The notes under the pieces: model-generated
What the model was told of the DNA's origin: nothing
What the model saw: the letters and a program-made list of their open reading frames with translations, nothing else
Databases searched by the model: none
Made by a program: the position numbers and the translations under genes
In this document: piece by piece, positions 9,794-37,600 of the stretch
How positions within the stretch are numbered: the stretch's first letter is position 1
Layout of the letters: every line of letters begins with the position of its first letter
Assembly: GCA_021163295.1 (NCBI GenBank)
Contig: JAGGXD010000224.1
Span: forward strand, 1 to 38,647
Length of the DNA: 38,647 nt
Source: Bacteroidales bacterium
GTDB taxonomy: Bacteria; Bacteroidota; Bacteroidia; Bacteroidales; VadinHA17
Direction of reading: 5' to 3'

Positions 9794-12241
9794 ATGGAAT
9801 ACAACACTGAGCAAATATACCAGGAAAAAAACATTGATATTAAGAAATTCCTCTTCAGGATACTTTCTAACTGGTATTGGTTTGCATTATCATTATTCTT
9901 CACTATTACAAGTGCATATCTTATAAGCAGGTATTCTGAACCGATATATAGTGTCAATGCTACAGTTATTGTCAGAGATGAAGATAAAGGGGGTGGACTA
10001 ATAGGCGCTGAGAGAATTATTGAAAGTGCTGATATGTTCAACAACCGCAAGAATATACAGAACGAAATTGGTGTTTTAAAATCATATTCCATCGCCCAAA
10101 AAGTTATGAGGGAACTGGATAATTTCAAAATAACCTATGTAAATGTCGGGCGCAGGGGAATTGCAGAATCCAAACTCTATAACCAATCACCTATAATTGT
10201 AATACCCGATACATCAGCCACTCAACGATTCGGATACCCGGTTTACATAAATATTCTTTCAAAAACGGACTTTGAACTGGAGATTGATGAAGAATACAAT
10301 ATTAAGAAACGAATGAAATTCGGCGAACCTTTTGTCACTGAAGATTTTAACTTCACCGTCGAGTTAAGGGATAAAAAGAATTTTTCCACTGAAAACCTAT
10401 CATCCGGAAAGTATTATTTCATATTCAATAGTCTGAACTCACTCACAAGCAGATATAGAAGTAAACTTGGTGTAGTGGTGACAGATAAAGAAAGTTCAAT
10501 ACTAACACTCTCCACCCAGGGGTATGTTGCCCAACAGGAAGTTGACTATCTGAATAAGCTTATGGATGTATTTATCAGGTCTGATCTGGATGAAAAAAAT
10601 CAGACAGCTATTAATACTATTAAGTTTATTGACGATCTGTTAATGGAAATTACAGATTCTCTGGCATCAGCTGAGTCTAACTTAATGCAATTCAGGCAAT
10701 CCAATAAAATTATTGACATTAGTAAAGAAGGGTCTGCAGTTCTTGAAAAGTACGAATCATTTCAACAAGAAAAAAGTCAGCTTGATATTAAGCTTAAATA
10801 CTATCATTATCTTCTTGATTATGTTACAAGCAAGTCTGACTTTAAAGATATTATTGCACCTTCGGTCGTTGGTATAAACGACCCTGTATTAATGTCGCTT
10901 CTTACACAATTATCTGACCTCTATTCTAAGAAAGCAGAGTTGCTTTTTGCCGCGAAAGAAAAGAACCCGTTAATAGATGTCACAACTCAAAAGTTAAGAA
11001 ATACCAGAAATGGACTTTTGGAAAATTTAGAAAACCTGATCCATTCCACCAACATCGCAATGGCTGATATGGACAAAAGGATATTGGAAGTCGAAAAGGA
11101 GGTAAGAAAACTACCCGCTACAGAAAGAGAACTCATTGGGATTGAACGGAAATTCAATCTTAATAATGATATTTACACATATCTGTTGGAGAAAAGGGCA
11201 GAGGCAGGAATTGCCCAGGCATCAAACATTCCTAATAATAAGATTCTTGATTTAGCCCGTGTTGATAATGCCACAAAAGTCTCACCAAAGAACTCAATGA
11301 ACTATATGATAGCTCTGGTTATCGGATTAGCAATTCCTCTGGTTATCATCCTTATGTTCGATTACTTCAATAACAAAATTATTGATAAGTCTGATATTGA
11401 AAACAATACAAATGTTCCTATTATGGGAAACATTGGGCATAATCACGATGAATCTGATCTCCCGATAGTACAAAATCCAAAGTCATCCATAGCCGAATCA
11501 TTCAGATCCATTCGAACCAATATTCAATATCTGCTACCTGAAAAAGAGAGGAATATAATTTTAATTTCGTCAACCATAAGCGGTGAAGGAAAAACCTTTG
11601 TAGCTACAAACCTTTCTATTATTATTGCCATGTCAGGCAAAAAAACCCTGCTCATGGGTTTAGATTTGAGGAAACCGAAAATACATAATGACTTTAATGT
11701 AAATAACGATGTGGGCTTGAGCACATACCTGATTAATGAAACAAGTTATGAAGATGTTATCCGGCCTACTAATATTGAAAACCTTTACATTGCAACCTCC
11801 GGCCCCATACCTCCCAACCCCGCAGAACTTCTTGAGAAACCGTCAATGAAAGACTTCTTTGATAAAGCAAGAGAAGAATTCGATTATGTGATCCTGGATA
11901 CTCCGCCTGTCGCAATTGTTACTGATGCCATACTTTTAACAAAGTTCACCGATACCAATATTTTTATCGTCCGCCAGAAATATTCCTCTAAAAATGTTGT
12001 CCAATATATTGATGAACTTTATAATAAAAAGAATATAAAAAATCTGAATCTTCTGGTAAACGATGTTAAAATCCAAAGCTACTACGGATATGATTACGGG
12101 TACGGCTATGGATATGGTTATGGGTACGGTTATGGGTACAGTTATGGCTATGGACAGGGATATTATGGCGACGAAAATGAAGCATCAAAAAGAATATCTG
12201 CAAAGATCAGGAGAGTTCTGTTCGGGAAAAGATCAGGGTAG
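9794..12241 (+). CDS. Wzc-type polysaccharide biosynthesis tyrosine autokinase
   Basis: 815 residues, inner-membrane co-polymerase plus BY-kinase. It controls length and export of exopolysaccharide or capsule. A Wzz-type periplasmic part lies between TM1 (about 28-45) and TM2 (about 504-521), with coiled-coil helices near 270-455 and a GNVR-like stretch (LPATERELIGIERKF). The cytoplasmic kinase shows Walker A ISGEGKT (595-601), Walker A' LLMGLDLRKP (619-628) and Walker B VILDTPP (699-705). The tail at 763-791 is nearly pure Tyr-Gly, more than a dozen tyrosines, corresponding to the C-terminal tyrosine cluster that Wzc proteins autophosphorylate. No Wza exporter, Wzb phosphatase or glycosyltransferases adjoin, so it is an orphan here. 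Start chosen from the conserved N-terminus; no upstream in-frame ATG. Confidence 0.92.
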   Translation: MEYNTEQIYQEKNIDIKKFLFRILSNWYWFALSLFFTITSAYLISRYSEPIYSVNATVIVRDEDKGGGLIGAERIIESADMFNNRKNIQNEIGVLKSYSIAQKVMRELDNFKITYVNVGRRGIAESKLYNQSPIIVIPDTSATQRFGYPVYINILSKTDFELEIDEEYNIKKRMKFGEPFVTEDFNFTVELRDKKNFSTENLSSGKYYFIFNSLNSLTSRYRSKLGVVVTDKESSILTLSTQGYVAQQEVDYLNKLMDVFIRSDLDEKNQTAINTIKFIDDLLMEITDSLASAESNLMQFRQSNKIIDISKEGSAVLEKYESFQQEKSQLDIKLKYYHYLLDYVTSKSDFKDIIAPSVVGINDPVLMSLLTQLSDLYSKKAELLFAAKEKNPLIDVTTQKLRNTRNGLLENLENLIHSTNIAMADMDKRILEVEKEVRKLPATERELIGIERKFNLNNDIYTYLLEKRAEAGIAQASNIPNNKILDLARVDNATKVSPKNSMNYMIALVIGLAIPLVIILMFDYFNNKIIDKSDIENNTNVPIMGNIGHNHDESDLPIVQNPKSSIAESFRSIRTNIQYLLPEKERNIILISSTISGEGKTFVATNLSIIIAMSGKKTLLMGLDLRKPKIHNDFNVNNDVGLSTYLINETSYEDVIRPTNIENLYIATSGPIPPNPAELLEKPSMKDFFDKAREEFDYVILDTPPVAIVTDAILLTKFTDTNIFIVRQKYSSKNVVQYIDELYNKKNIKNLNLLVNDVKIQSYYGYDYGYGYGYGYGYGYGYSYGYGQGYYGDENEASKRISAKIRRVLFGKRSG

Positions 12242-13905: not shown

Positions 13906-14070
13906 CTATCCAAACGGCTTATCATCATCAAACGGAGAATCGGAATCACCACTTCCTTTACTCCCACCACGGGGAGTCGGGTTGGGAGGGGTAGCAGTCA
14001 ACATGTAAAGTGAGATAGAATTATCCAAATCGATCTTTTTTATTTCAGGCTTTTTGTAAATCTTCTTCAT
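13906..14070 (-). CDS. 54-residue candidate precursor peptide
   Basis: Short ORF, ATG at 14070 and TAG at 13906. The N-terminal half is basic and helical-looking (MKKIYKKPEI, then KKIDLDNSISLYML). The C-terminal half starts TATPPNPTPRGG and ends in an acidic, Ser/Gly-rich tail (GSGDSDSPFDDDKPFG). There is no cysteine. The two-part leader/core-like build, its own near-perfect promoter (14099-14130), and its place as the last gene of the PqqD/HPrK/peptidase/ABC/nucleotidyltransferase set suggest a ribosomally made, modified peptide. Short Bacteroidota proteins beginning MKKxYxKP are, from memory, frequent and unannotated. The rest of the 13855-14215 gap is the heptamer repeat and this gene's leader. 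Function is inference. Confidence 0.65.
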   Translation of the reverse strand: MKKIYKKPEIKKIDLDNSISLYMLTATPPNPTPRGGSKGSGDSDSPFDDDKPFG

Positions 14071-14098
14071 ACTGTTAAAAAACTTACTTTAACATTTT

Positions 14099-14130
14099 CA
14101 AAACTACAACAATTTAATAATTATAACAAA
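14099..14130 (-). promoter_or_regulatory. Bacteroidota promoter for the small peptide gene
   Basis: Read on the minus strand: TTTG (14127-14130), a 20-base spacer, then TAGTTTTG (14099-14106). This is an exact match to TTTG-N20-TAnnTTTG, the same spacing as at 9758-9789. It gives a leader of about 20-25 bases before the ATG at 14070, independent of the upstream operon. Confidence 0.65.
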
Positions 14131-14215
14131 TTTCATTCTCAACTTAAGTTAGACTAAAAAAACGAGTAATTAGTTGCATTGGTGTATAAAAGTCTACTGA
14201 CTACTTAGAATTAGT

Positions 14216-15400
14216 TTAATTTCGTTGCATTCGTATTAAGTAAATTATCTTGCCGAGACGATGCGGATAATACAACAACGCTGCAAGTTTACTACGTGTA
14301 CCATACCTTTCCCTCATAAACCTCAGTGACGGAAACAGATCGCCTAAGATGAAAATGATTTTACGGTGTAATCCCTGTATTTGGTTTATTGTTTGCCGGT
14401 AAGTGTATGCCCTGCTGTATTGTGCAGGATGTCCCTTCGGCTGTGATAAGAAAGTTTTGAATAACTGAGTGATATTAGCCGGTGCCTTTTCATTTATCGG
14501 TATCTCGAGTCCCGGATTAATAAAAATCCCCCAATAATGCTTCAGAAGAAAAAGTTTTGCTGCTAAAATTTTTTCCAGTCCGGCTGCTTCTGCTTCTTTA
14601 AATAATGTCCTGTTTAAAAGCTCTTCTCCATAATTTTCAATCATGCAAAAAAGGTCTGTATATAAACGTAGTTGTGATTCTCCCTTCTTCTCATGTTTAT
14701 CGAGATGCTTCACTAAGTAAAGAAAAAACTCACGTACCGGTGGGATATACAGACTGCTTTTGTTAAATAAAATTTCAGTGCTGCCGGTAATCATTTTTTC
14801 TGTAAGTGAGTGGTCTGGTCCTGCAAAAAGGTTATGATGTATCTCAACTGAAATGCCTCCTTTTACTAACTCGGGCAAATGCTTACCATAGTAAGGCAGT
14901 ATTAGATTATAGAGTGGTGACTTAAGCGGGATTGACTGAAAACCATTTTTCAATAATATCCTTCTTGCTTCCATGCACCGCTTCCGGGGAACAAGGATAT
15001 CAATATCGTTCATCTGCCTTAACCCCTTATTGCCGTAAACAGACAATTCAAGTGCCATCCCTTTAAGCAATACTGTTTTTATTTTTGCCTGCCTGAAAAG
15101 ACCAAGTACTTCTTCAATAATATTATAAAGAAATGTGTTACGTCCCAGACTTTTCATCCTGCTATTTGCCAGGAAAACCATTTTCTCTTCAGGAAGCAGA
15201 TCCCCGGCACCTGTCTCTTTCAGATTATCGTAAACCAGCGCTATAATGCCGTGTTCGTTTGCCAGGTAAACAAACCTGTTTATGTCTGTTATCTTCTTTA
15301 CGAGTGCATTAATATTTTTCTTCTGCTTTTCGCTAAAGGAGAGACGGCAAAGAGATATCAGCAGTTGCTCTTCGGGTAATATATCGGCAATCAGACTCAT
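14216..15400 (-). CDS. nucleotidyltransferase family protein (NTP_transf_5 type)
   Basis: 394 residues of the uncharacterised nucleotidyltransferase family often found in peptide and polysaccharide clusters. The catalytic region is clear: LLKGMALE (about residues 111-118) and RQMNDIDILVPRK (about 128-140), with metal-binding D132 and D134. A helical N-terminal part precedes it and the C-terminal third is basic. In lasso clusters such as paeninodin, a related protein (PadeN) sits with the HPr-kinase-like PadeK. Here its ATG overlaps the ABC gene stop by 4 bases (ATGA), so the two are translationally coupled. The acceptor molecule is unknown; the neighbouring peptide is a reasonable guess. Confidence 0.8.
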   Translation of the reverse strand: MSLIADILPEEQLLISLCRLSFSEKQKKNINALVKKITDINRFVYLANEHGIIALVYDNLKETGAGDLLPEEKMVFLANSRMKSLGRNTFLYNIIEEVLGLFRQAKIKTVLLKGMALELSVYGNKGLRQMNDIDILVPRKRCMEARRILLKNGFQSIPLKSPLYNLILPYYGKHLPELVKGGISVEIHHNLFAGPDHSLTEKMITGSTEILFNKSSLYIPPVREFFLYLVKHLDKHEKKGESQLRLYTDLFCMIENYGEELLNRTLFKEAEAAGLEKILAAKLFLLKHYWGIFINPGLEIPINEKAPANITQLFKTFLSQPKGHPAQYSRAYTYRQTINQIQGLHRKIIFILGDLFPSLRFMRERYGTRSKLAALLYYPHRLGKIIYLIRMQRN

Positions 15401-17196
15401 AATTTGTATCCGCTGCTTTGCTTAGTGAACATCTCACTGTAAAGACCACCGGCTTTCATCAGAGCCTGATGTGTCCCTTCTTCGACTATTGTTCCCTTAT
15501 CGAGGACCAGTATCCTGTCAGCCAGACTGACATTTGAGAAGCGGTGACTGATAAGTATTGATGTCCGGTCGCGGGTTATCTCTTTGAACCTGCTGAAAAC
15601 CTCATATTCTGTTGTTGCATCAAGGGCGCTTGTCGGTTCGTCGAGTATCAGTACAGGGGCATTTCTGTAAAGGGCGCGTGCCATAGCTATCTTTTGCCAT
15701 TCGCCCCAGCTAAGTTCACGACTGTCATCAAAGAGTCTGCCGATTACCGTATCATATCCTTTGGGCAGTGCCTCAATAAGTTCGTCAATGCCTGTTTGTG
15801 ATGCTGATGATTTTATCCGTTCCCTGTTTTGAGGTTTTAAAACATCCCCCATCCAAATATTATCACCAGCGCTAAGATTATACAGCATAAAATCCTGAAA
15901 AATCACAGAGAACAATCTGCGGTACAAAGCAGGATCCATATGGGTAATATTTTTACCGTCAAGTGTTATTTTTCCTTCAATCGGATCATATAATCTGCAT
16001 AGCAGTCGTACCAGTGTACTTTTACCTGCACCGTTAGCTCCTACCAGCGCTATCGTTTCGCCTTTCCTTATCCCAAGATTAAGATTTTTGAGCAGTGGTT
16101 CACTGGTACCTGGGTATGAGAAAAAGAGATTCTCAACCTTGATACTACTGCTAAAGTTGCCGGGTTCAATAACAGGAGGTACAGCAACAATTTTTTCTTT
16201 AAGGTTAAGAAACTCGAATGTATCGCTAATAAAAAGGTTATCCTCATACAGACCTGCCAGCGAAGAAAAGACATCTTTTATATAAACCATTCCCTGCCTG
16301 AAAGCAACAAGATACATTGCCATATCGCCAACCGATATTTGTGAGCTTACAGTTTCTTTTGCGATATACCCAAGTGCCAAAAGAAATGCTGCTGCTTTAA
16401 ATATTCCCGCAACGAGCTCAATCAATGTTCTCTTGCTTATTATACTTATTTCTTCTTCTTTTAACTTATTGAAATTTTTGTTAAAAAGCTTAGTGAAATA
16501 TTCGCCCAGTCCGAACAGCCGCAATTCCCTTGACGGTCTGTCTCCTGTAAGCAGCCATTTGAAGTATGCTGTTTTTCTTGCAGCCGGGGTCTGCTCACGC
16601 TTAAAGTTATACAGCACCCCTGCATAATGCAGCCTGAGCCATATTCCAGGTATATTGGCTGCCAGAAGAATTATTACTATTAACCAGTGCAAATAAATAA
16701 GCAGTCCTGCCATCAGCAAAAGCGATAATAGTCCCCTTGCAATAGAAATAAGGTTGTTGACGATAGTGTTTGGTCTGTATGGTGCTTCGCGTGCCGCACG
16801 GGCTAAAGAATCGTAATACTCAGGATTCTCGAAGTGTTGAAGATCAAGCTGTATTGACTTGGAATGAAGCAGGCTATGCATATACGACTCAAGGCGGTAC
16901 GATTGTTTGTTACGCACCAGGTTACCAAGACTTGTTGCTGCCTCATCGAGGAATATTGTTATAACAACAGCAAGTATATACCATATTATCAGGCTACTGT
17001 TTATATCACTATTCTGCCCTGCTGCCTCAGCAATACCATCAACAAGCTGCTTTATAAGATACACAAGTACTAACGGGAATATGCTTCGGATAACAGAGAT
17101 AAATATGTTCGTAGTTGCCCAGCCCGGAGCGCTTTCCCATACAAGTCGGACTGCTTTTATGAAGAGTAATCTGGATTTATTGGATGGGTAATTCAT
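15397..17196 (-). CDS. ABC transporter, fused permease and ATPase (peptide exporter type)
   Basis: 599 residues. A six-helix transmembrane domain occupies about residues 1-325 and the nucleotide-binding domain about 350-590. Visible motifs are Walker A GANGAGKST (386-394), Q-loop Q434, Walker B VLILDEPTSALD (515-526) and the H-loop histidine (H551). The signature is LSWGEWQ (495-501) rather than LSGGQ, with tryptophan at the second glycine. There is no N-terminal C39 peptidase domain, so a double-glycine leader would not be removed by this protein; the separate S24/S26 peptidase 13 bases upstream might do the processing. Probably a homodimeric exporter of the neighbouring gene's product, as with the D proteins of lasso clusters. 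Confidence 0.88.
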   Translation of the reverse strand: MNYPSNKSRLLFIKAVRLVWESAPGWATTNIFISVIRSIFPLVLVYLIKQLVDGIAEAAGQNSDINSSLIIWYILAVVITIFLDEAATSLGNLVRNKQSYRLESYMHSLLHSKSIQLDLQHFENPEYYDSLARAAREAPYRPNTIVNNLISIARGLLSLLLMAGLLIYLHWLIVIILLAANIPGIWLRLHYAGVLYNFKREQTPAARKTAYFKWLLTGDRPSRELRLFGLGEYFTKLFNKNFNKLKEEEISIISKRTLIELVAGIFKAAAFLLALGYIAKETVSSQISVGDMAMYLVAFRQGMVYIKDVFSSLAGLYEDNLFISDTFEFLNLKEKIVAVPPVIEPGNFSSSIKVENLFFSYPGTSEPLLKNLNLGIRKGETIALVGANGAGKSTLVRLLCRLYDPIEGKITLDGKNITHMDPALYRRLFSVIFQDFMLYNLSAGDNIWMGDVLKPQNRERIKSSASQTGIDELIEALPKGYDTVIGRLFDDSRELSWGEWQKIAMARALYRNAPVLILDEPTSALDATTEYEVFSRFKEITRDRTSILISHRFSNVSLADRILVLDKGTIVEEGTHQALMKAGGLYSEMFTKQSSGYKL

Positions 17197-17209
17197 TAAT
17201 GTAAAGATA

Positions 17210-17674
17210 CTAATTACACGAATTTAGACGAATTATACGAAGGAGTTTTTTCCATAAGTAAATAAGTCTAACCAAAACACGGTTATAGCGGTAATGTATT
17301 TTATGGCGGTGTGGTTGTATTTTTCGTCGTTTGGTTTCGATAGTAGTAACAACACCTATTATTTTATCTAAAGTAATTGGTTTGTCTTCATTTAAACTAC
17401 TGTCGCCTCGTGTAATATAGAAAGCATTTTCTTTCTGATACCGGATATCTGTCAGCCGGTGTAATACAAAATCTGAATCTCTCTTAAAAACTACAATATC
17501 GCCAGTAGTGAGGTTTGACCGGGTTTTGACAGGAGCAATAACTACAACATTTCCAGGACGAATTGCGGGGAACATACTGTAACCGGCCGTTTTAATCCGC
17601 AACGACTTCCCCTCTGCCAAAAGATTCAAGCTTACCTCTTTAAGAAAAATACTATTTGATCCGGAATCCTTCAT
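17210..17674 (-). CDS. S24/S26-type signal-peptidase-like serine protease
   Basis: 154 residues. The catalytic serine is S33 in GYSMFPAI. The second key position is histidine in FVLHRL (H72), as in archaeal/SipW-type signal peptidases, rather than lysine. A later conserved GD (residues 90-91, TRGDSS) and D97 complete the usual pattern. There is no membrane helix before the serine; the C-terminal 30 residues are very basic and amphipathic, which could attach it to a membrane. It sits between the HPrK-like gene (162-base gap) and the ABC exporter (13 bases). Likely acts on the cluster's peptide, but this is inferred. The 17675-17836 gap is AT-rich with a TTCGAATATCGAACAAGG-type intergenic run and no ORF. 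Confidence 0.78.
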   Translation of the reverse strand: MKDSGSNSIFLKEVSLNLLAEGKSLRIKTAGYSMFPAIRPGNVVVIAPVKTRSNLTTGDIVVFKRDSDFVLHRLTDIRYQKENAFYITRGDSSLNEDKPITLDKIIGVVTTIETKRRKIQPHRHKIHYRYNRVLVRLIYLWKKLLRIIRLNSCN

Positions 17675-17836
17675 TTAGTATCTTATTATAACTAATGTTT
17701 TGCAGATGAAATAAATACTAAAATAATAAATTAAAAAAATATATAATGTCAAACAAAAAACAATTCAGTTTTCGAATATCGAACAAGGAACACCGATTAA
17801 CGATTTGCGAAGTAAAATCAATTCCCTTTATCCCCT

Positions 17837-18718
17837 CTACTCCAATATAAATGACACTACACTTTCATCCGGTTTAAAAAACAGTCGGTTAATATCTGTT
17901 TCGGATGTCAGCTTAACAAGTGTTTTAGTCAGTGATTCTATTATTACTGGGTCCCACAGATGCTGAATACAGTTTGCCATTACAAGAGAAAGAGCCTCAC
18001 TTTTTCCAGTTGGGACAATCTTGTTAGCCTTGCCATGATCGATAAGGAATATTTTGTCAACAGGTGACGACCGCTGTGTCTCGTTATTATAAACCGGTGT
18101 GTTATACATAACAAAACGGTCGTTAATATATCTGATAATAAGTCTGTCGTCATGGATTACCGTGGCACCAGCTTTATCCCACAGTTGAGCAATAGTAGTT
18201 TTGCCTTTCCCTGAAACACCGGCAAAAAGATATCCCCTGTTATTTATCTTAATCCCGGAGCCATGAATAAAAATATCACCCGACCTTACAGTAAGATAAT
18301 ATAGCATCAGACCATCGAGAGGATACTCAAGCGGATCCTTTTTCTTATCTGCACTACTGATATAAAGATCCCACTCATCTGCACCGGTATTCATTCTCAG
18401 ACTCGCCTTCCTGTTTTTTTTCCCTAGTGGCAGGATAGTCTCAATTAAAATATCGTTTTTGTTCTTATAAACTGTCCAGAACTCATCATTGACTTTTACC
18501 TTTATGTTATCAGTCTCTTTAATATACGGAGCATGAAACACCCTGACAGCTTTTTCTTCAGGTTTAAGAACACCGGAATGCACGCGTACAGTAATATCAG
18601 CATTCCCACAACAGGAGAAAAAATGGTTATATTTCTTTTTTAAAAGAAGATCAGTCTCAGGACCTGTCGAAATAAACCGTATATCATAGTCTGCAATATT
18701 CAGGTTAAAACTCTTCAT
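17837..18718 (-). CDS. HPr kinase/phosphorylase C-terminal-like protein
   Basis: 293 residues. The only strong motif is a P-loop, AGVSGKGKTT (residues 166-175), followed by IHDDRLIIR (D190, D191), the layout of the kinase domain of HPr kinase. The long N-terminal part is not the HprK regulatory domain. No HPr (ptsH) is nearby. In paeninodin-type lasso clusters the homologous PadeK phosphorylates the precursor's C-terminal serine, so a peptide-kinase role is plausible; the 54-residue peptide here has serines in its tail (S37, S40, S43, S45). Its start overlaps the PqqD stop by 4 bases, showing tight coupling. Confidence 0.75.
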   Translation of the reverse strand: MKSFNLNIADYDIRFISTGPETDLLLKKKYNHFFSCCGNADITVRVHSGVLKPEEKAVRVFHAPYIKETDNIKVKVNDEFWTVYKNKNDILIETILPLGKKNRKASLRMNTGADEWDLYISSADKKKDPLEYPLDGLMLYYLTVRSGDIFIHGSGIKINNRGYLFAGVSGKGKTTIAQLWDKAGATVIHDDRLIIRYINDRFVMYNTPVYNNETQRSSPVDKIFLIDHGKANKIVPTGKSEALSLVMANCIQHLWDPVIIESLTKTLVKLTSETDINRLFFKPDESVVSFILE

Positions 18719-19002
18719 CCGGCAATAATAAGGAATTTTTTCATTTCAGCAATAAAGGCAAGAAGATCATTTTTTGCCGTTTCAGCATCCACATCAAATT
18801 CAGTCTGCATGCAGGAAACAATTTCTGTAAGGGTTGATTTACCATCGAGTTTTTCCCATATAAAAGCACCTGTTTCGTTCAGTGTATAAACACCATCCAT
18901 ATCTGCAATGTTATTACTTACAGGGACCAGAACATATTCATCCCCCGTTTTTCTCGGAACAATCCCGGGAGATGGTGTGACAACAGAGTTAAGATCAATC
19001 AT
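18715..19002 (-). CDS. PqqD-like peptide-binding (RRE) protein
   Basis: 95 residues. The pattern PGIVPRKTGDEYVLVPVSN, then YTLNETGAFIWEKLDG, then IVSCMQTEFDVDAETAKNDL is that of PqqD-family RiPP recognition elements, which bind precursor leaders and hand them to modifying enzymes. The start is placed at 19002 (MIDLNS). A longer reading from 19044 is possible, but it would begin upstream of the -7 box at 19023-19030. First gene of the minus-strand cluster, coupled (ATGA) to the HPrK-like gene. A stand-alone PqqD corresponds to the B1 protein of lasso clusters; a B2 partner is missing here. Confidence 0.82.
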   Translation of the reverse strand: MIDLNSVVTPSPGIVPRKTGDEYVLVPVSNNIADMDGVYTLNETGAFIWEKLDGKSTLTEIVSCMQTEFDVDAETAKNDLLAFIAEMKKFLIIAG

Positions 19003-19042: not shown

Positions 19043-19080
19043 ATATCCGCCTAGCGGTTTAAAACCGCTTGGCGGGTATC
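19043..19080. repeat. palindromic REP-like element, copy 2
   Basis: Inverted repeat with arms CCGCCTAGCGGTTT and AAACCGCTTGGCGG (one mismatch pair), centred near 19061. The reverse complement matches 9607-9639. It lies exactly between the two divergent -7 elements at 19023-19030 and 19099-19106. Confidence 0.75.
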
Positions 19081-19353: not shown

Positions 19354-20403
19354 TTATTCCGGTACTTCAACAATTATTTCCCTGAAGGCATCAGTAAATT
19401 CAGCGCAGAAATCACCTTTATCATCTGAATAAATAAAATAGGCTTCAATTCCGTCAAGTTTTTTCACAAGCTTTTTTGACCTTTCCAATCCTATTATCAT
19501 AAAAACAGTGGCAAAGGCATCTGCCGATATACAATCCTGGGCTGTTACAGTTACGCTTAAAAGGTTATGTCTTACAGGATATCCGGTTTTAGGATTTATT
19601 GAATGAGAATATTTTACCCCGTTTTCCTCAAAAAACTTCCTGTAATTCCCTGAAGTAGCCATGCAGTTATCTTCCAAAGTGAGGATCACCTGGAGGTCCT
19701 GACCGGGAATAAAGTTATAATCATATGGCTTATCAACCCCTACTTTCCAGGGAGTTCCCCGTTTCTTAGTACCGGCAGCTCTGATTTCTCCTCCAATCTC
19801 AACCAGAAAGTTATTAATCCCTTTGTTACTCAGAAAACCGGAAACAATATCAACTGAATATCCCTGGGCAATAGCATTAACATCTAATTTTACTCCGGGA
19901 TCACTTTTTATCACCCTTTCATTTTCTATTTGCACTTTATCCATACCTACAAATTGAATAAGACTATCTATCAAAGCACTATCAATTTTTTCACGTAGTT
20001 CAGTGCCAAACCCCCATGCATTAACCAGTGGACCCACAGTAATATCGAAAGCCCCGTCACTTATTTCATTCACCTCCTTCGCTTTATAAAATACTTTACT
20101 GAACAGACTATCTACCTTAACATCCTTATCATTATTATTTATTCGGGATATCACTGACTCAGGAAGATATGCCGAAAGTGACATATCGAATTCCATTAGC
20201 AGGGAATCAATTTCTTCCTGGTAATCATGTATATTACGATTCAGGAAAAATCCAGGTGAATAGGGCTGTTTGTAAACAATATGATAGGTCGTGCCCTGTG
20301 TAAATCCATCCAGGATAAAGAGTGCATTCTTTTTATAATTCAGGTACGACAGGATAAGCAATACCAGGAAGGCAAGGATAATGTATAAGGTTCTTTTGTT
20401 CAA
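19354..20403 (-). CDS. apbE: FAD:protein FMN transferase (ApbE)
   Basis: 349 residues, with an N-terminal membrane anchor or signal (about residues 5-22), acting in the periplasm. It transfers FMN from FAD onto a threonine of target proteins; here the targets are NqrB and NqrC. Family marks are DGFTQGTTYHIVY, SDGAFDITVGPLVNAWGFG (about 114-132), KLDVNAIAQGYSVD (about 172-185), VEIGGEIRAAGTK and the metal-site region SADAFATVFM (about 293-302). The only available start is TTG at 20403, inside a GTTCAAG tandem repeat; the next in-frame ATG lies far inside the conserved domain. It is last in the nqr operon, 53 bases after nqrF. Confidence 0.9.
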   Translation of the reverse strand: MNKRTLYIILAFLVLLILSYLNYKKNALFILDGFTQGTTYHIVYKQPYSPGFFLNRNIHDYQEEIDSLLMEFDMSLSAYLPESVISRINNNDKDVKVDSLFSKVFYKAKEVNEISDGAFDITVGPLVNAWGFGTELREKIDSALIDSLIQFVGMDKVQIENERVIKSDPGVKLDVNAIAQGYSVDIVSGFLSNKGINNFLVEIGGEIRAAGTKKRGTPWKVGVDKPYDYNFIPGQDLQVILTLEDNCMATSGNYRKFFEENGVKYSHSINPKTGYPVRHNLLSVTVTAQDCISADAFATVFMIIGLERSKKLVKKLDGIEAYFIYSDDKGDFCAEFTDAFREIIVEVPE

Positions 20404-28612: not shown

Positions 28613-31600
28613 ATGAATATTACAAAATCTTCAGTTTCGTTTCTTTCCAAAATCATAAAAGTCTTATTAGTTATAATATTAGCACTACCATTTAATGGAT
28701 TTTCCCAATCCGTTATCTATGTAAAACATGATGCCGGTGGAAGTGATAATGGCACCTCATGGACCGATGCCTATACCAGTCTGCAATCCGCTCTTGATGA
28801 TGCGGCAAGTGGTGATTCAATATGGGTAGCTGCAGGAACCTATAAACCCTCTAAAGATAAAACAGGGAACAATTCCCCGGCTGATAACCGCACAAAAACC
28901 TTTCAACTGGTTGACAGTGTATCCCTGTTTGGCGGTTTTGCCGGAACAGAAACAAATTTTGAGGAGAGAGACTGGAAAACAAATGAAACAATTTTAAGCG
29001 GAGATATTGGAACTATTGATGATATCTCCGATAACTGCTACAATGTAGTAAGAGGTATTGATCATTCAAGCATTGATGGTTTTACAATTACCCTTGGAAA
29101 TGCAAATGGTCCAACTGCCAATGAAACGAATATGGGAGGAGGCATTTTAAATAAAAATGTTTCAAATGTAAAAATCCTAAATTGCATTTTCAAAAACAAT
29201 AAAGGGATTCAGGGGGCTGGAGTTGCCAATTTTTATTGTTCAGATACATTACTTTTTTCCAATTGTATTTTTTTATCCGATTCTGCCGGTTGTGGTGGAG
29301 CTATAGGCAACTGGGATAATAAAGCAATAATAGAAAAGTGTGTATTTGAAGACAATAAAGCGGATATAGGGAATCACACCCCTGATTGGGGAATGGGTAG
29401 TGCCATTTATAACTGGGGCTCAGGTTCAACTTCTGAAGTTATTAATAGCACTTTTTTGAATAATGAATCTACTATTTCCAATAGTGGAGCTATACATGAT
29501 CGTGGAGTTCATAGTACTGTAAAAAATTCCATCTTTCTGGATAATCCCCCAAATGATTTTTACTCTGTTGGAACCGTATCATATACCTTAACAAATCAAT
29601 CAGGATATGAAGGAAACAATGGAAATATCGCAGGAGATCCTTTACTTTATGAAACAGGTGAAGGGGAATATGAGTTAAACTGGGCTTCGCCTTGTATCGA
29701 TGCGGGAGATCCTGATCCGGCATACAATGATCCGGATGCCAGTCGTAATGATATGGGCGCTTCTCATATCATCTCTTCACCTCAGGTTGATGCTCTTATA
29801 TCAGTTATAGATACTCCTTTACAATCATTTGTTTACGGCAATTATGATGTCTTTGTAACCATGGTAAATCTCGGAACGGATCCGTTAACATCAGCAGCTA
29901 TTGACTGGGAAGTGGATGGAACTCCTCAAACCACTTTTAACTGGACAGGGAACCTGGCAGGGGCCGACACAACAAATTCCTTTACGATTGGAAATTATTC
30001 CTTTGACCAGGGAGACCACAATATTAAGGTCTGGACATCAATTGCTTCCGATGAGTTTCATGGAAATGATACTCTGGATAAGGAAGTCTATGCCTCTGCC
30101 CATATGGATGCAGGTATCGTCTCTCTTGATGACCCTGATACTCTTTGTAGCTTTGAACCATCCACCGATCTGTATGTATCCTTTAAAAATTATGATACAG
30201 ACAGCACTCTGACAAATGTAGATATTGGCTGGACGGTTGATGGCGCTGCTCAAACAACCTATAACTGGTCAGATAGCCTTGCACCCGGGGATACCCGCGA
30301 TTCAATTTTGTTCGAATCGTTTTCTTTTTCACGGGGTAAGCACAATTTTAAAATATGGACAGAAAATCCCAATGGCCATTCAGATGATAACTGTGATAAT
30401 GACACCCTTGAAATAACTATCTATTCCAGGGCATATGACATAGGTGTTAGTACACTGTACACCCCAACCAACCCGGATACAACAGGGAACCAACAGGAAG
30501 TAAATGTGGCTATTAAAAACTTTTCACAGGATTCGGTAATCACCTCGGCAAGAATTGACTGGGATGTTGACGGGACTCCGCAGGTTCATTATGACTGGAC
30601 AGGTTCACTTTCACCGGGAGAAATTTCGGATAGCATCATGATAGGGAAGTACGATCTGCCTGCTAAAGACACCCTTGATTTTAAGATTTGGACCGAAGCG
30701 CCCAATGGTGATACAGACGATTATCATGGAAATGACACTCTATTAAAAGAAATAATTGTAGCTAATCCGTTGTGTGACACATTTACTATAGGAGCAACTG
30801 GTGATTTTCTGACTTTTCAGAAAGCAATCGATTCATTAGTTAACGGTGGCGGTGTATGCGGACCGGTTGTATTCATGGTTGAAACAGGCACATATAACGA
30901 ACAAATAACCATTCCTGAAATTCCGGGAACTTCTGAAAACTATACAATTACCTTCCAGTCTGCCACAGGCGACAGCACAGATGTAACATTATCTAATACA
31001 GGAGGAGGTTATACAGTAACTCTTGACGGGGCGGATTATATTATTTTCAAAAACATGACTATCTCAACAGATGCTTCCGGTACGGTAATTGAATTTAAAA
31101 ATGAAGCTAACTATAACAGTATTATGAATTGCCGTATTTTAGGAGAAGCAGGCAGTTCAAGTCTGATATATGTCAATTATCAAAATATTAACAATATTTT
31201 TTTCGGTAACAGAATAGTAAACGGAACAAAGGGAATACACTTCTATAACGGAAACAGTACAATTACCGGCACTGAAATTAAGGAAAATGTTTTTGAAAAT
31301 CAGTCGGCAGAAGCTATTCACCTGTGGGAAGTAAAAGGAGCAAACATAATTGGGAATACTATTACATCAAATTCTTCCATTAGTGGAATATATTTTTATC
31401 GTTGTGAAGATAATTTTACTATTGAAAAAAATAAAATTTTATTATCAGGCGGAGGAACAGGTATTTATTTTTACTATGGAACAAACAATACCGGCATTCC
31501 CGACAACATTGCCAATAATTTTATATATGTTAATGCTTCTGATGATAGTCATTATGGTATTTATGTTGAAAGTAACAGTAGGGATATAAACTTTTTTAAT

Positions 31601-34600
31601 AATAATATTAATATTACCGGTAATGCCACAGGTAGCTGTAATGTAAATATTCTTCCTATTCAATACTCAACTGTTAAAATAAAAAATAATATACTAGTTA
31701 ATAAAGCAGGTGGAAGGGCTATTAGTTATTATAGTAATAATTCTAATTTTGCTAGTGATTATAATTGTTTTTATTCCAACGGCACCTATCTCATCAACAA
31801 TGAAAAAACTCTTGAAGAACATCAAAGTAGTTCAGGACAGGATATGCATTCCTTTTCCGTAGATCCGCAATTTGTTTCCGATAGCGACCTTCATACATTC
31901 AGTCCGTATCTTAACAACCAGGGCACACTAATTGCCGAAATAACCACCGATATTGACGGAGAATCCCGCAATGGTACAAATCCCGATATAGGTGCAGATG
32001 AGTATGATCCTAAACCTCCTCTTAGCGGCACCTATTCAATAGGACCTTCTGACTTGTTCAAAACCTTCAACGATGCTGTTGATTCATTAATTTCAGTAGG
32101 GGTCGGCGGACCTGTGATCTTCGAGGCAGAAGACGGGACTTATAATGAACAGGTAACCATTCCATGGATAGCCAATTCTTCTGAAACCAATACTATTACA
32201 TTCAAATCTGTAAGCGAAGACAGTACTAAAGTTATACTAACTTATGCTGCTACCGGTGAAAATGATAATTATACTTTGAAACTGGACAAAGCCGAATATA
32301 TCACTTTCAGGGATATTACACTTGAAGCAACCGGAGCAGAGTATGCGAGAATTGTTGAAATTGGTTATAGAACTCATAACAATACTTTTTCAAATAACCG
32401 GTTGCTTGGTGTACTTAACAAGTCAGAATTAGTTTATTCATACAACTCCGGTGATACGTGCAATGTATTTAATAATAATCTTTTTAGCAATGGAATTCGT
32501 GGTATAAATATGACTTCAGGGTACATTACTTATGGACCTGCTATTTCCGGAAATGAATTTATTGATCAAACCGGAGAAGCAATATATTTAAGTTCGTATA
32601 AGAATCCAATAATATTATCAAATTATATATATTCTAATTATACATCGACTAGTATTTTTCTTGACAATAACAGAGATAGAGTTGAAATCGGAAAAAATAA
32701 TATCCTTTTACCAAACGGTGGAAAAGGTATTGAATTGAAATCTGGTCAATGGATAACTACCAGTGATACAAGCCTGATATACAATAATTTCATCTATTTG
32801 AACGCCACTAACACAGGCAATCCGGAATATGGAATCTGTTTGAATATGAATTACCTGGGCGCTAAAATAATATTCAATACAATACATATTACAGGGGATA
32901 ATTCTTCCAGCGCATGTTTATATCATATATATAGTACATATATTGATTTCAGGAATAATAATCTGGTCAATAAAGCTTATGGTTTAGCTATAGGAAATAG
33001 TTATAACCTTTCAATTAGCAATTTTAATAACCTGTTTTCAAACGGCACTAAACTCACTACATATTCCGCCGACCTGGAACACTGGCAAACAACTTACAAT
33101 AAAGATATTAATTCCGTTTCGGTAGATCCATACTTTGTAGTGGATACAAGTCAACATATTTTGAATCCCGTTTTAAAAGGAGCAGGAATACCATTTGTTG
33201 AAGTTACTCAAGATCTTGATGGAGACATTAGGGATGCTCTTAATCCGGATATTGGAGCTGATGAGTTTACTGTATGTGATTCACCCATCAGCGGTACTTT
33301 TACAATTGGCGGAACGACCCCGGATTATGAAACAATGAATGATGCGGTTGAAAAACTGGTTTGCTGTGGTGTGAATGGACCGGTTACTTTCAACATAGCA
33401 ACCGATACCCTGACCGAACAGATCTCAATCCAGGAAATCCCGGGAGCTTCCGGCACTAACACCATTACATTCCAATCGGAAACAGGCGATAGCTCAGATG
33501 TCTTAATTACTTTTACTCCGGTAAATACAAAACTTAATTATACAATCCGGTTGGATGGAGCGGATTTTATAACATTCAAAAACCTTTCAATCTCCTCAGG
33601 AGAGAATTGGGGTAGCGCAGTTCGTTTATATAATGAAGCTACTAACAATCAATTCGTGAATAACAAGTTCTTTTACGAAGGCACAATGACCAGTAGTGAT
33701 GAAAACGCATTTATTTACACATCAGGTAGCCTTGACAGCAATAATGTCTTTGATTCCAACCTTTTTGAAAACGGTTCAATTGGAATTTATATGGATGGCA
33801 GTGCTGCATCCGATTCAATTGCCGGAATACAAATTAAAAATAACATATTTGCAGAAATGGTTCGCCGGGGTGTCTATCTTCAGAAACATAAAAATCTGAA
33901 TATCAGTGGTAATCAGTTCGAGATTTTAAACAGCACCTACAGTTTTGGTTTATGTATAACAAATTCCACCGGTCTGATTTATAATAATTTCATACAATTG
34001 GAAACAACCCATACCGGAAATGGAATTTATCTTTATAATTGTTCAAGTATCCCGGTTCTTCATAACACAATCATGATTACTGGAAATTCTCCATCCTACA
34101 GTCGTTCTCTCTATTATAATACCCCGACCAATCGTGAAATTAAAAACAATATTTTCGTGAATCTAGCTTATGGTAGGGTTATTGCCTGTGATACAGCAAA
34201 TTTTGCCAGCGATTATAATTTGTTATATACTAATGGAACCCGGTTGGTAGAAAACTGGGCAAACCTTAGCGACTGGCAGGTTGCATCAGGTAGAGACCAG
34301 CATTCCGTTTCAAGAAAACCTCAATTCCTGGCGGATACGAACCTGCATACAACAGATCCATGGATGAATAACTGGGGTACTCCAATAGCAGAAGTAACAA
34401 CGGATATTGACGGAGAAGCGAGAGATGCAGTTACCCCAGATGTTGGTGCCGATGAGTTTGACGGGATAATGCCATTTGAAGGTGAATACACTATCGGAGC
34501 TACCGGTGACTTTGAATCATTTACAGAAGCAGTAGATACAATTACACCGGTGGGTATTAGTGGTCCGGTTACCTTTAAGGTGGAAAGCGGAACTTATAAC

Positions 34601-37600
34601 GAACAATTTGTAATTACTGCAATACCAGAAGTTACAGAAACAAATACAATAACTTTCCAGTCTGCATCAGGAGACAGCATGGATGTTATTCTGCAATTTG
34701 ATGCCACTGCCAGTGAAAACTATACTGTAAAAATGGATAGCTGCAGTTTTATCACTTTCCAAAATATGACAATTAAAGCTTTGGATATTACTTACGCAAG
34801 AGTTATTGAATTTGCCGGAGGCGCTTCAAATAATACACTGAGTAATAATGTTCTTGAGGGTCTTGGCACTACAAATGCAGTCGTCTATTCTATTGGTGAT
34901 CAGGACAATAGCAATCTATTTGAGTATAACCTTATAATTGGTGGAAAAATCGGAATCCAGATGTTCGGAGAAAGTGCTTCACTACTTGAGTCGGGAACTG
35001 AAATTACAGGCAATGTTTTCGAAAACCAGTTTAGTGGATCTATTCTGCTTAAATTTAATAACGCACCGCTTGTTTTGAATAACCAGATGATTCATAATGA
35101 ATTAATAAAGGACATATGGGCAGGAATATATCTTGACGAATGTTCAGGAACCGGGAGTAACCTGGGACTGATAGCTAATAATGTTATTGCTTTTAATACC
35201 GAAACAATGTCAGCAGGAATTATCCTTGAAGGGTCTTCATATCAGAAAGTTTACCATAACAGTGTAAATGTCTATGGATCTACTGAAAATAGTCGTGCCT
35301 TTAACCAACAAGAGGGTGGATCAAATAATATTTTAACAAATAATATTTTCAACAACCTGTCAGGGGGTTTGGTAATATATACCAAAGATATTAATAGTTT
35401 TACCAGTGATTACAACAACTTTTACTCTTCCGGCGACCGGTTTATTTATTACGGAGTTACCATTACCGAATTTTATTGGATAAATGACCTGGCAACCTGG
35501 CAAACTGATTATTCAAAGGATCTTAATTCATATTCGGTTGATCCGAAATTTGTTTCCGACACCAATCTCCTTCCCTCCAGTATTACGCTTGATGGTTCCG
35601 GTGAAGCATTGGCTGAGGTTACTGAAGATTTTGCCGGCAATCAGAGAGATCCGGTTAATCCGGATATCGGGGCATATGAATTCTATGGTTGCACAAATTC
35701 AGGGACTTTTTCAATAGGACCTTCGGGTGCTGATTATTTAACTTTCGGCGAAGCGGTTGAATCACTTCAGACATGCTGGGCCGATGGACCGATTATTTTT
35801 AATGTGCAGTCAGGAACCTATAACGAACAGTTGATTTTTACGGAAGTACCCGGAGCATCAGAAACCAATACTATTACATTCCAGTCAGTTTCAGGTGACA
35901 GTACAGATGTAATTCTTACCTGGGCATCAACAAGTGCGGACACTAATTATACGGTTAAACTTGATGGGGCTGATTATATCAGTTTTAAAAACCTGACACT
36001 CCAGGCTACCGGGAATGATTATGCAAACGTTATTGGAATTTTGAACGGAGCTTCAAACAACCAGTTCCATAATAACAGGTTTATAGGGGTAAATACAACA
36101 GATCCTTCAAACACTAATGGAGCTTTGGTTTTCTCACCCTATGGAAGCGCAAATGATACAAACACTGTCTTTAATGAAAATCTGTTTTTATCAGGTTCGT
36201 ATGGAATTTATCTTAGTGGGAGTTATTCATACCTTGAAAAGAATAATCAGATAACCGGGAACAGGTTTGAAGATCAGGTATCTTACGGTATGTACCTGTA
36301 TTATCAGGACAGCGCTTTAATTTCCATGAATGAAATATCCAATACACTCTCGGATAAAGATTATTATGGGATATATTTGCACGGAATTAATTCGCAGATT
36401 AATAAAAACAAAATCAATCTGAATAATATACACTATAGATGTATCGGAATCGATATTAACGGGCCATATCCATATACAAAACCAAATTTCTTAAATAATA
36501 ATTTCATTCATATCAGTACAAACAGCTCTCAAGGTGTAATCGGTATAGAACTTAGTAGTTGTTGTAATTCATATTATAATAGTATTAATATAACCGGTGA
36601 TGACACAGGTAGTTACGCGATCTTATTACCAACAGCCAGCCAGTCATGTGTACTGAAAAATAATATTTCTGTTAATAATGCCGGAGGTTACTCAATAGGT
36701 TATTCAGACGATTCTTCTGATAATGTATCAAGTGATTACAATGATCTTTATTCAAACGGAGATTATCTTGGTAAATACAATAGTACAAATCTGGTTGACC
36801 TTGCGGAATGGATTACTGCAACAACATTTGATTCAAACTCGGTTTCTGTTGATCCTGTATTTTTATCCAATTCAGATCTGCATACAAACAATCCTGTTAT
36901 TAATGGAGCAGGAACTCCCATTACAGAAGTTACCGATGATATAGATGGTGAACCCAGGGATGTCACAAAACCGGATATCGGAGCTGATGAATTTACTCAA
37001 TCAATTTATGTACTTGAAAATGAAATTATAAATGCCTGTGCATATGACACTGTAACACTGGATGCCGGAAACGGGTATGACAGCTATTCATGGTCTAATA
37101 GTGCCGCTACCCGTTTTGCAGACGTTGATACAACAGGGATTGGACTGGACAGTGTAAAACTGGTTTCAACCGTAACACTTGGCGGACAGGAATACAAAGA
37201 TTCCCTTTGGGTCTCCTTCCATAAACCGGTTGCTGTAACATTTGATGTTGATACATGTGAGTATAATTATGTTCATTTGAAAGCATCCGGTGGAGTATCC
37301 TACCATTGGGAACCTTATGCAAATAACCCGGATACCTGCTGTCCCACAGTTCCTTTAAACAATACAATCCTGAATAATATAGTTACCGTATATGACGAAT
37401 ATGGATGCTATGATACTGATACTGCAATAGTTACACCATACAGCAAACCTTTGCAACCTGTAATTCAGTTCTCTGCCGACAGCCTGGTAAGTTCTGTAAC
37501 AGGTACAACCTACGACTGGTTTTTGAACAGCAACATAACAGAAGACACTATACAAGCAATATTACCACAGGAATCGGGTAATTACCAGGTAATTGTTTAT

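Follow-up and report, generated by a model that had tools for sequence, protein, structure and literature searches.

A putative LPP-like RiPP system in a Bacteroidales bacterium, with five predicted enzymes and no lasso cyclase

Introduction

The locus described here occupies positions 13906–19002 of a 38,647-nucleotide stretch of DNA from a Bacteroidales bacterium (contig JAGGXD010000224.1 of assembly GCA_021163295.1; the whole stretch is hereafter termed the window), and encodes five predicted enzymes together with a 54-residue peptide. Its closest described relatives are the linear polyphosphorylated peptides (LPPs; LppA/K/B/S/D/N), reported by Popov et al. (Nat Commun, May 2026, PMC13381572). 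As set out in that report, LppK phosphorylates a core serine, and LppS, a SpI-like peptidase with a Ser/His/Asp triad, removes the leader aided by LppB, a RiPP recognition element (RRE; RiPP, ribosomally synthesised and post-translationally modified peptide); both the kinase dependence of phosphorylation and the leader cleavage by the S26-type enzyme were shown by experiment. Unphosphorylated LPP precursor is cut poorly; the threonine of an FxT motif is the P1 residue, and its mutation lowers cleavage; deletion of lppN is described there as having no visible effect. The C termini of LPPs are highly variable, Bacillota LPPs often lie within capsule loci, and lasso RREs of other phyla are said to hold the leader tyrosine likewise. 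The same text calls the LPPs 'restricted to the Bacillota' and the SpI hits 'most' or 'predominantly' Bacillota, and given this latter wording the supplement of PMC13381572 may list non-Bacillota rows. Among open-licence PubMed Central papers, covered mostly at the level of titles and abstracts, without supplements, and with passages of PMC10352776 and PMC12710340 included, no report of the set in Bacteroidota was seen.

We consider it probable (roughly 0.8) that the locus belongs to a branch of LPP-like RiPP systems in Bacteroidota, as judged by sequence comparison. The main support lies in the genes present, the homology of all five enzymes to those of Bacillota LPP clusters, the conservation of residues for catalysis and RRE contact, co-occurrence of the precursor with the kinase, domain fusions in relatives, and the absence of the lasso genes C and B2. 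An earlier, sequence-only reading of this DNA had proposed a peptide altered by phosphorylation and nucleotidyl transfer, cut by an S26-type protease and exported, and had taken this as a different class of modified peptide. The proposal of a non-lasso, probably linear, RRE-guided peptide with a kinase, an S26 leader peptidase, an exporter and a nucleotidyltransferase (NTase) stands, whereas its claim to a different class lost its novelty when the LPPs were published in May 2026 (PMC13381572). A divergent Bacteroidota branch would nonetheless widen a kind of system which that report confines to Bacillota; it also supplies a precursor profile for searches, and fusion enzymes on which a coupling of phosphorylation with cleavage and export can be tested.

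The predicted enzymes

Six genes lie on the minus strand in the order PqqD-like, HprK-like kinase, S24/S26 peptidase, ABC exporter, NTase and peptide, with the coordinates and the two 4-base overlaps that the sequence-only reading had given (PqqD/HprK at 18715–18718; ABC/NTase at 15397–15400). The open reading frame of the PqqD-like gene (18715–19002) opens at 19044, and we placed its start at the ATG at 19002, giving 95 residues, because 95-residue relatives begin at that ATG. The protein matches Pfam PqqD (E 1.6e-20), and its matches to PDB sequences include PbaB1 (9x90; 8.7e-4) and LppB (9x8z; 0.024); N56, D93 and F97 (109-residue numbering) align with N33, D70 and F74 of LppB. By homology, it is a discrete, LppB-like RRE.

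The kinase gene (17837–18718) gave a match to Hpr_kinase_C at E 0.0038, under the curated cut-off, and because this domain match was weak the protein was folded computationally with 12 relatives. The resulting model (predicted local distance difference test score 91.4) has phosphoenolpyruvate carboxykinase (PEPCK) as its best PDB match (Z 13.0, root-mean-square deviation 4.6 over 226 residues), the PEPCK fold being one which we take HprK to share. The motifs GVSGKGKT (P-loop), DDR and CIQH are largely conserved, and the model agrees with a predicted kinase of the HprK/PEPCK type, similar to LppK.

The S24/S26 protein (17210–17674) matches Pfam S24 (E 2.9e-5) and the NCBIfam model sigpep_I_arch (62.1 bits, above its cut-off of 51.85), and shares 37.5% identity over 96 residues with one LPP peptidase. 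Its putative triad, S33/H72/D97, is invariant in 13 rows and has the same spacing as S29/H68/D93 of LppS. The protein is devoid of a transmembrane-like stretch (highest 19-residue hydropathy 0.97) and so fits a role in cytosolic leader removal; values above 1.6 occur in 7 of 31 Bacteroidota S26 frames, in one of these upstream of the start. It is likely an archaeal-type, signal-peptidase-like leader peptidase resembling LppS.

The exporter (15397–17196) matches ABC_tran (E 1.8e-32), with MsbA models matching below their own cut-offs, and is assigned as MsbA-like and LppD-like. The ABC signature is expected as LSGGQ; at the corresponding position this protein has LSWGEWQK. The fifth enzyme (14216–15400) matches Pfam NTP_transf_5 (E 1.6e-46) and is LppN-like; that it carries out nucleotidyl transfer is a guess. 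The SynChlorMet cassette (ScmC/ScmD) and HprK-related kinase B likewise pair an HprK-like with a PqqD-like protein, and the ScmC, ScmD and kinase B models match only weakly, far under their curated cut-offs (27 against 125, 39 against 100 and 37 against 200 bits).

Conversely, 13 of the 295 genomes scanned from a Paenibacillus family hold LppB-like RREs, and the surroundings of these were fetched. When the 13 loci were searched with models made from Bacteroidota proteins, 11 gave all five enzymes, the exceptions being L193 (no S26 or NTase match) and L195 (no NTase match; L and G numbers here and below are our handles for loci and genomes), and a peptide with the LPP motif is present in 12. 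A further Paenibacillus locus, L168, was rejected: it pairs a kinase with an ABC gene, and neither an RRE nor S26 was matched there.

The precursor peptide

At E 1, the product of the peptide gene (13906–14070, minus strand) matches neither a Pfam nor an NCBIfam model. Across 10 pairs from five congeneric genomes, its nonsynonymous divergence (dN 0.03–0.09) is well separated from its synonymous divergence (dS 0.17–0.53); it is a real gene under purifying selection. The frame is unbroken in relatives, five congeneric copies and 76 distinct peptides having been recovered. These 76 were condensed from 134 hits, which included many near-identical copies and repeat fetches of one place; three hits lacking a readable YxxP motif were excluded.

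The family follows the pattern YxxP...D...ISLxMx[S/T]. Counting from the motif tyrosine (present in 75 of the 76), Pro at +3, Asp at +11 and Ser/Thr at +20 occur in all 76, and Met at +18 in 68. In the window, the predicted leader (residues 1–25; 13996–14070) contains the YxxP motif (Y5–P8), the invariant D16, the hydrophobic M23 and T25, the predicted P1 residue. The predicted core (residues 26–54; 13906–13995), the start of which follows from the assumed cleavage site, ends with the C-terminal PF pattern of family f1, SPFDDDKPFG.

By likeness to the F-x-T site of LPPs, the Ser/Thr at +20 is likely the P1 residue. A less probable alternative is that this residue is instead the phosphate acceptor, and that phosphorylation there gates a nearby cleavage: +20 is the sole position that is Ser/Thr in 76/76 peptides, as compared with about 14% Ser/Thr in the adjacent leader and 15% in the core. 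Small P1 residues are, however, usual for signal peptidases, as the P1 assignment would have it. The LPP findings (PMC13381572) can be cited on either side, as precursor without phosphate is cut poorly, whereas cleavage drops when the threonine of FxT, which occupies P1 in the corresponding context, is mutated.

In the family of the window peptide the core is conserved across genera, with endings such as SPFxSPFxDKPF[GS]. Set against the variable cores reported for LPPs (PMC13381572), this conservation would point to a function that is stable, and away from an arms race. Precursor variants from Crocinitomicaceae/Flavobacteriales (L156:9738–9953 and L159:13245–13517) have ...IDTEFT[YF]FTTS... 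in place of ISLxMM[ST].

Distribution and co-occurrence

From the order of the window 393 genomes were sampled, its own included; a profile built from six peptides matched 42 of these at E 0.05 and 29 at E 0.001, with up to five matches per genome. Across the phylum, it matched 3 of 395 sampled genomes at E 0.001, again including the window's own; the precursor is mainly a trait of this order, with outliers. PqqD, peptide, HprK and S26 genes stand in one run in 9 of the 39 peptide loci fetched, spanning six families, with the ABC gene next in six of the nine; of the other loci, one has PqqD–peptide–HprK at a contig end and two have PqqD–peptide only. Further such runs occur in L073, Marinilabiliaceae L157, Bacteroidales L160, the Chlorobiota metagenome-assembled genome (MAG) L150, and L227. 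The conservation of the enzyme set as a unit, on which the earlier reading had staked its proposal, is borne out by the loci of relatives.

Among the 393 genomes of the order, 31 carry a full-length kinase, 42 the peptide and 27 both (Fisher 6e-27, a figure which ignores kinship), and the kinase is found in 25 of the 29 genomes with a peptide at E 0.001. The 31 are those scoring at least 125 bits, a cut chosen after the list was seen, out of 71 with a match at E 1e-10; the next row, at 107 bits, is a partial domain, and if all 71 are used the overlap is 29 of the 42 peptide genomes (hand count). A second comparison used the window kinase alone as the query. It matched 65 of 147 relatives, reduced to 59 on dropping six short, weak matches; 38 of the 147 carry the peptide and 36 both.

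Gene order varies between genera. In genus g11, PqqD–HprK stands apart from ABC–NTase, with the peptide near the latter. In genus g8, neither the profile nor a regular expression located a peptide beside the set; in part of these genomes the peptide lies on another contig, where in G041 it adjoins an NTase gene. Plasmids were searched with two queries, the window kinase and an LppB fragment, and neither was matched.

In five Acidobacteriota MAGs (L161, L162, L165, L166 and L167), HprK-like and PqqD-like genes form one run in an order unlike that of Bacteroidota; S26 precedes in four of these (L161 starts inside the kinase), and some have an NTase nearby. Perhaps these runs are a third branch of such systems. 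Bacteroidota-like sets also occur in MAGs titled Methanoregulaceae (L148), Nitrospirae (L149) and Alphaproteobacteria (L153), which may reflect binning errors or transfer. A divergent precursor-like peptide (L279:7695–7841) comes from G794, a genome outside the class with three matches; the five enzymes were unmatched in the 16 kb fetched.

Comparison with lasso peptide clusters

Lasso peptide clusters of the paeninodin type share with the window set an HprK-like kinase, an NTP_transf_5 protein, a PqqD-like B1 and an ABC exporter. They differ in having an asparagine-synthetase-like cyclase (C) and a transglutaminase-like protease (B2), in a different RRE pocket and, across the 12 loci examined, in the lack of any match to S26. 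A standard lasso pathway, with cyclase and B2 protease acting from elsewhere in the genome, was considered: lasso clusters, too, have the YxxPxI leader and genes for a kinase, an NTase, an exporter and an RRE, five Asn_synthase matches occur in the same genome (all on contigs other than that of the window), and the core segment GGSKGSGD could, on a reading of the letters, spell an eight-residue ring. This segment is not kept in other family members. The earlier observation that C and B2 are missing was confirmed, with zero model matches in the window, and B2 was also looked for elsewhere; at E 0.001 there is no match to Transglut_core3 (PF13471, B2) in the window's genome, which is 96.6% complete.

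The C/B2 models further matched 0/123 Bacteroidota loci (window included), as against 12/12 paeninodin loci (C in 11) and 1/13 LPP loci; the absence from the Bacteroidota loci examined is counted among the differences from LPPs. The models were themselves made from paeninodin-type loci, nine of the 12 contributing rows, which leaves L214, L215 and L220 as independent controls, and the B2 model consists of three rows, one being a spurious overlapping frame. The 123 loci overlap in part, some lack the set, and a few come from MAGs whose titles name other groups, among them Chlorobiota and Alphaproteobacteria. Given the lack of B2 in the genome and of C/B2 in the 123 loci, we rejected the lasso pathway with remote C/B2 and regard it as very improbable.

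Domain fusions and a proposed mechanism

In the window the peptidase, kinase and exporter are separate proteins, whereas two distinct S26 fusions are found in relatives. In six loci (L226, L229, L230, L153, L154 and L074) the ABC exporter begins with an S26 domain, and in seven genus g11 genomes (L066–L072; L260 repeats L070) the kinase protein ends with one; the exporter-fused domains match at E 6e-32 to 6e-44. As the same peptidase is joined to exporter and to kinase, we regard these fusions as the strongest sign in the genomes that the peptide's phosphorylation, its cleavage and its export may form one process. In the peptidase domain-containing ABC transporters (C39-ABC; PCATs) a peptidase domain likewise stands at the exporter N terminus, as it does in the six related loci, although in the latter that domain is a serine peptidase of the S26 type.

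In the mechanism we propose, the PqqD-like RRE would bind the YxxPx[I/V] leader and the HprK-like kinase would phosphorylate a Ser/Thr of the RRE-bound precursor. The S26 serine peptidase would then cleave behind residue 25, where the hydrophobic-x-[S/T] site ends, and the ABC exporter would secrete the linear core; the phosphate may be decorated by the NTP_transf_5 enzyme. That the RRE binds YxxP and S26 removes the leader is predicted with good confidence, as is, separately, action of the kinase on the precursor; export of the core is likely. We are doubtful of a more far-reaching version, in which these systems constitute a Bacteroidota class of linear phosphopeptides of their own, with the invariant Ser/Thr between leader and core as the phosphate acceptor that licenses the S26 cut, direct hand-over to the exporter (as the S26–ABC and kinase–S26 fusions suggest), and multi-copy, conserved cores having a house role at the surface or envelope rather than one in warfare.

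Relation to LPPs

The window system and the LPPs are alike in the five-enzyme set, a YxxP leader, a Ser/His/Asp peptidase of the LppS type, an RRE pocket of the N33/D70 type and the lack of a cyclase. They are unlike in that the former belongs to Bacteroidota and not Bacillota, has IxIDxxISLxMx[S/T] in place of HQxIxFETxxS and a longer leader, keeps its core conserved within the window's family, and shows fusions of the peptidase among relatives and precursor copies scattered in the genome. At the positions equivalent to LppB N33 and D70, Asn occurs in 31 and Asp in 32 of 34 Bacteroidota RREs, and in 10 and 13 of 13 LPP RREs, whereas paeninodin-type RREs have Gly (12/12) and Gln or His (10/12). 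Such a pocket fits a predicted tyrosine leader, which the window has.

Several observations weigh against the assignment and concern, on the one hand, its closeness to LPPs and, on the other, the link between peptide and enzymes. With respect to the first, Asn and Asp also occupy the pocket in 6/6 Acidobacteriota/Elusimicrobiota rows; as these have the pocket and lasso RREs of other phyla hold the tyrosine likewise, it is not specific to LPPs and argues against the paeninodin type rather than proving an LPP. Of the LPP consensus YxxPxVLxHQxIxFETxxS only the YxxPx[IVL] part is present, HQxIxFETxxS being absent; the Bacteroidota leader is five residues longer; and there is no conserved serine at the place aligned with the LPP phosphosite S3, an alignment that depends on the predicted cleavage site. 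In the RRE tree the 13 LPP RREs group alone (SH-aLRT 93; Shimodaira–Hasegawa-like approximate likelihood ratio test), as do those of the paeninodin type (95), with Bacteroidota outside both; the Bacteroidota rows are not one group, four of 24 falling on the LPP/paeninodin side of a weak branch (67), and the deep branches are weak. In the kinase tree the Bacteroidota proteins form one group (97), apart from the LPP kinases (96). Both trees are quick ones from 26 chosen Bacteroidota loci, and a length cut dropped five of the 13 LPP kinases and all paeninodin kinases, so that the kinase tree does not compare LPP with lasso. As the trees keep the groups apart and the precursor consensus differs, we call the system LPP-like, a putative separate Bacteroidota branch, rather than a member of the LPPs.

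With respect to the second, 27 of the 39 peptide loci are without the enzyme set in the stretch fetched, contrary to the earlier expectation that the peptide would always be found beside it. The ABC gene does not follow in three of the nine runs, the NTase is absent from several loci, and four of the 29 peptide genomes at E 0.001 have no kinase. The order-wide co-occurrence is partly circular, since the kinase profile (A3) was seeded in part from loci found through the peptide. Precursors were not detected at E 0.01 in 23 of the 59 kinase-bearing relatives; a permissive search of those 23 (E 10) matched in 11, with a best E of 0.17 and nothing convincing. These figures, together with the lack of adjacency in g8, the Wzc-like kinase gene nearby in the window and the frequent placement of Bacillota LPPs in capsule loci (PMC13381572), are what could be expected if the peptide were a coincidental small open reading frame and the enzymes acted on another substrate, for example a cell-surface polymer. 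We consider this quite improbable in view of the strong co-occurrence of kinase and peptide, their adjacency in several families, the purifying selection on the peptide, the shared RRE motif and, within g8, the NTase gene beside the detached peptide of G041.

Other features of the window

The HprK-like and S26 genes are separated by 162 bases, and the NTase and peptide genes by 145; these gaps suggest that the peptide gene has its own promoter. Promoter-like elements of Bacteroidota type (TTTG ... TAGTTTTG) lie ahead of it at 14098–14130 on the minus strand, where, just upstream of the peptide, TTTG is kept in 5/5 and TAnnTTTG in 4/5 congeneric genomes, these being presumably the Bacteroidota consensus elements. 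The window gave no Rfam match at gathering scores. The Wzc-like tyrosine kinase gene lies at 9794–12241, on the strand opposite to the set, and a gene for an ApbE FMN transferase lies directly upstream of the set at 19354–20403. An open reading frame of 3101 codons occupies 28613–37918.

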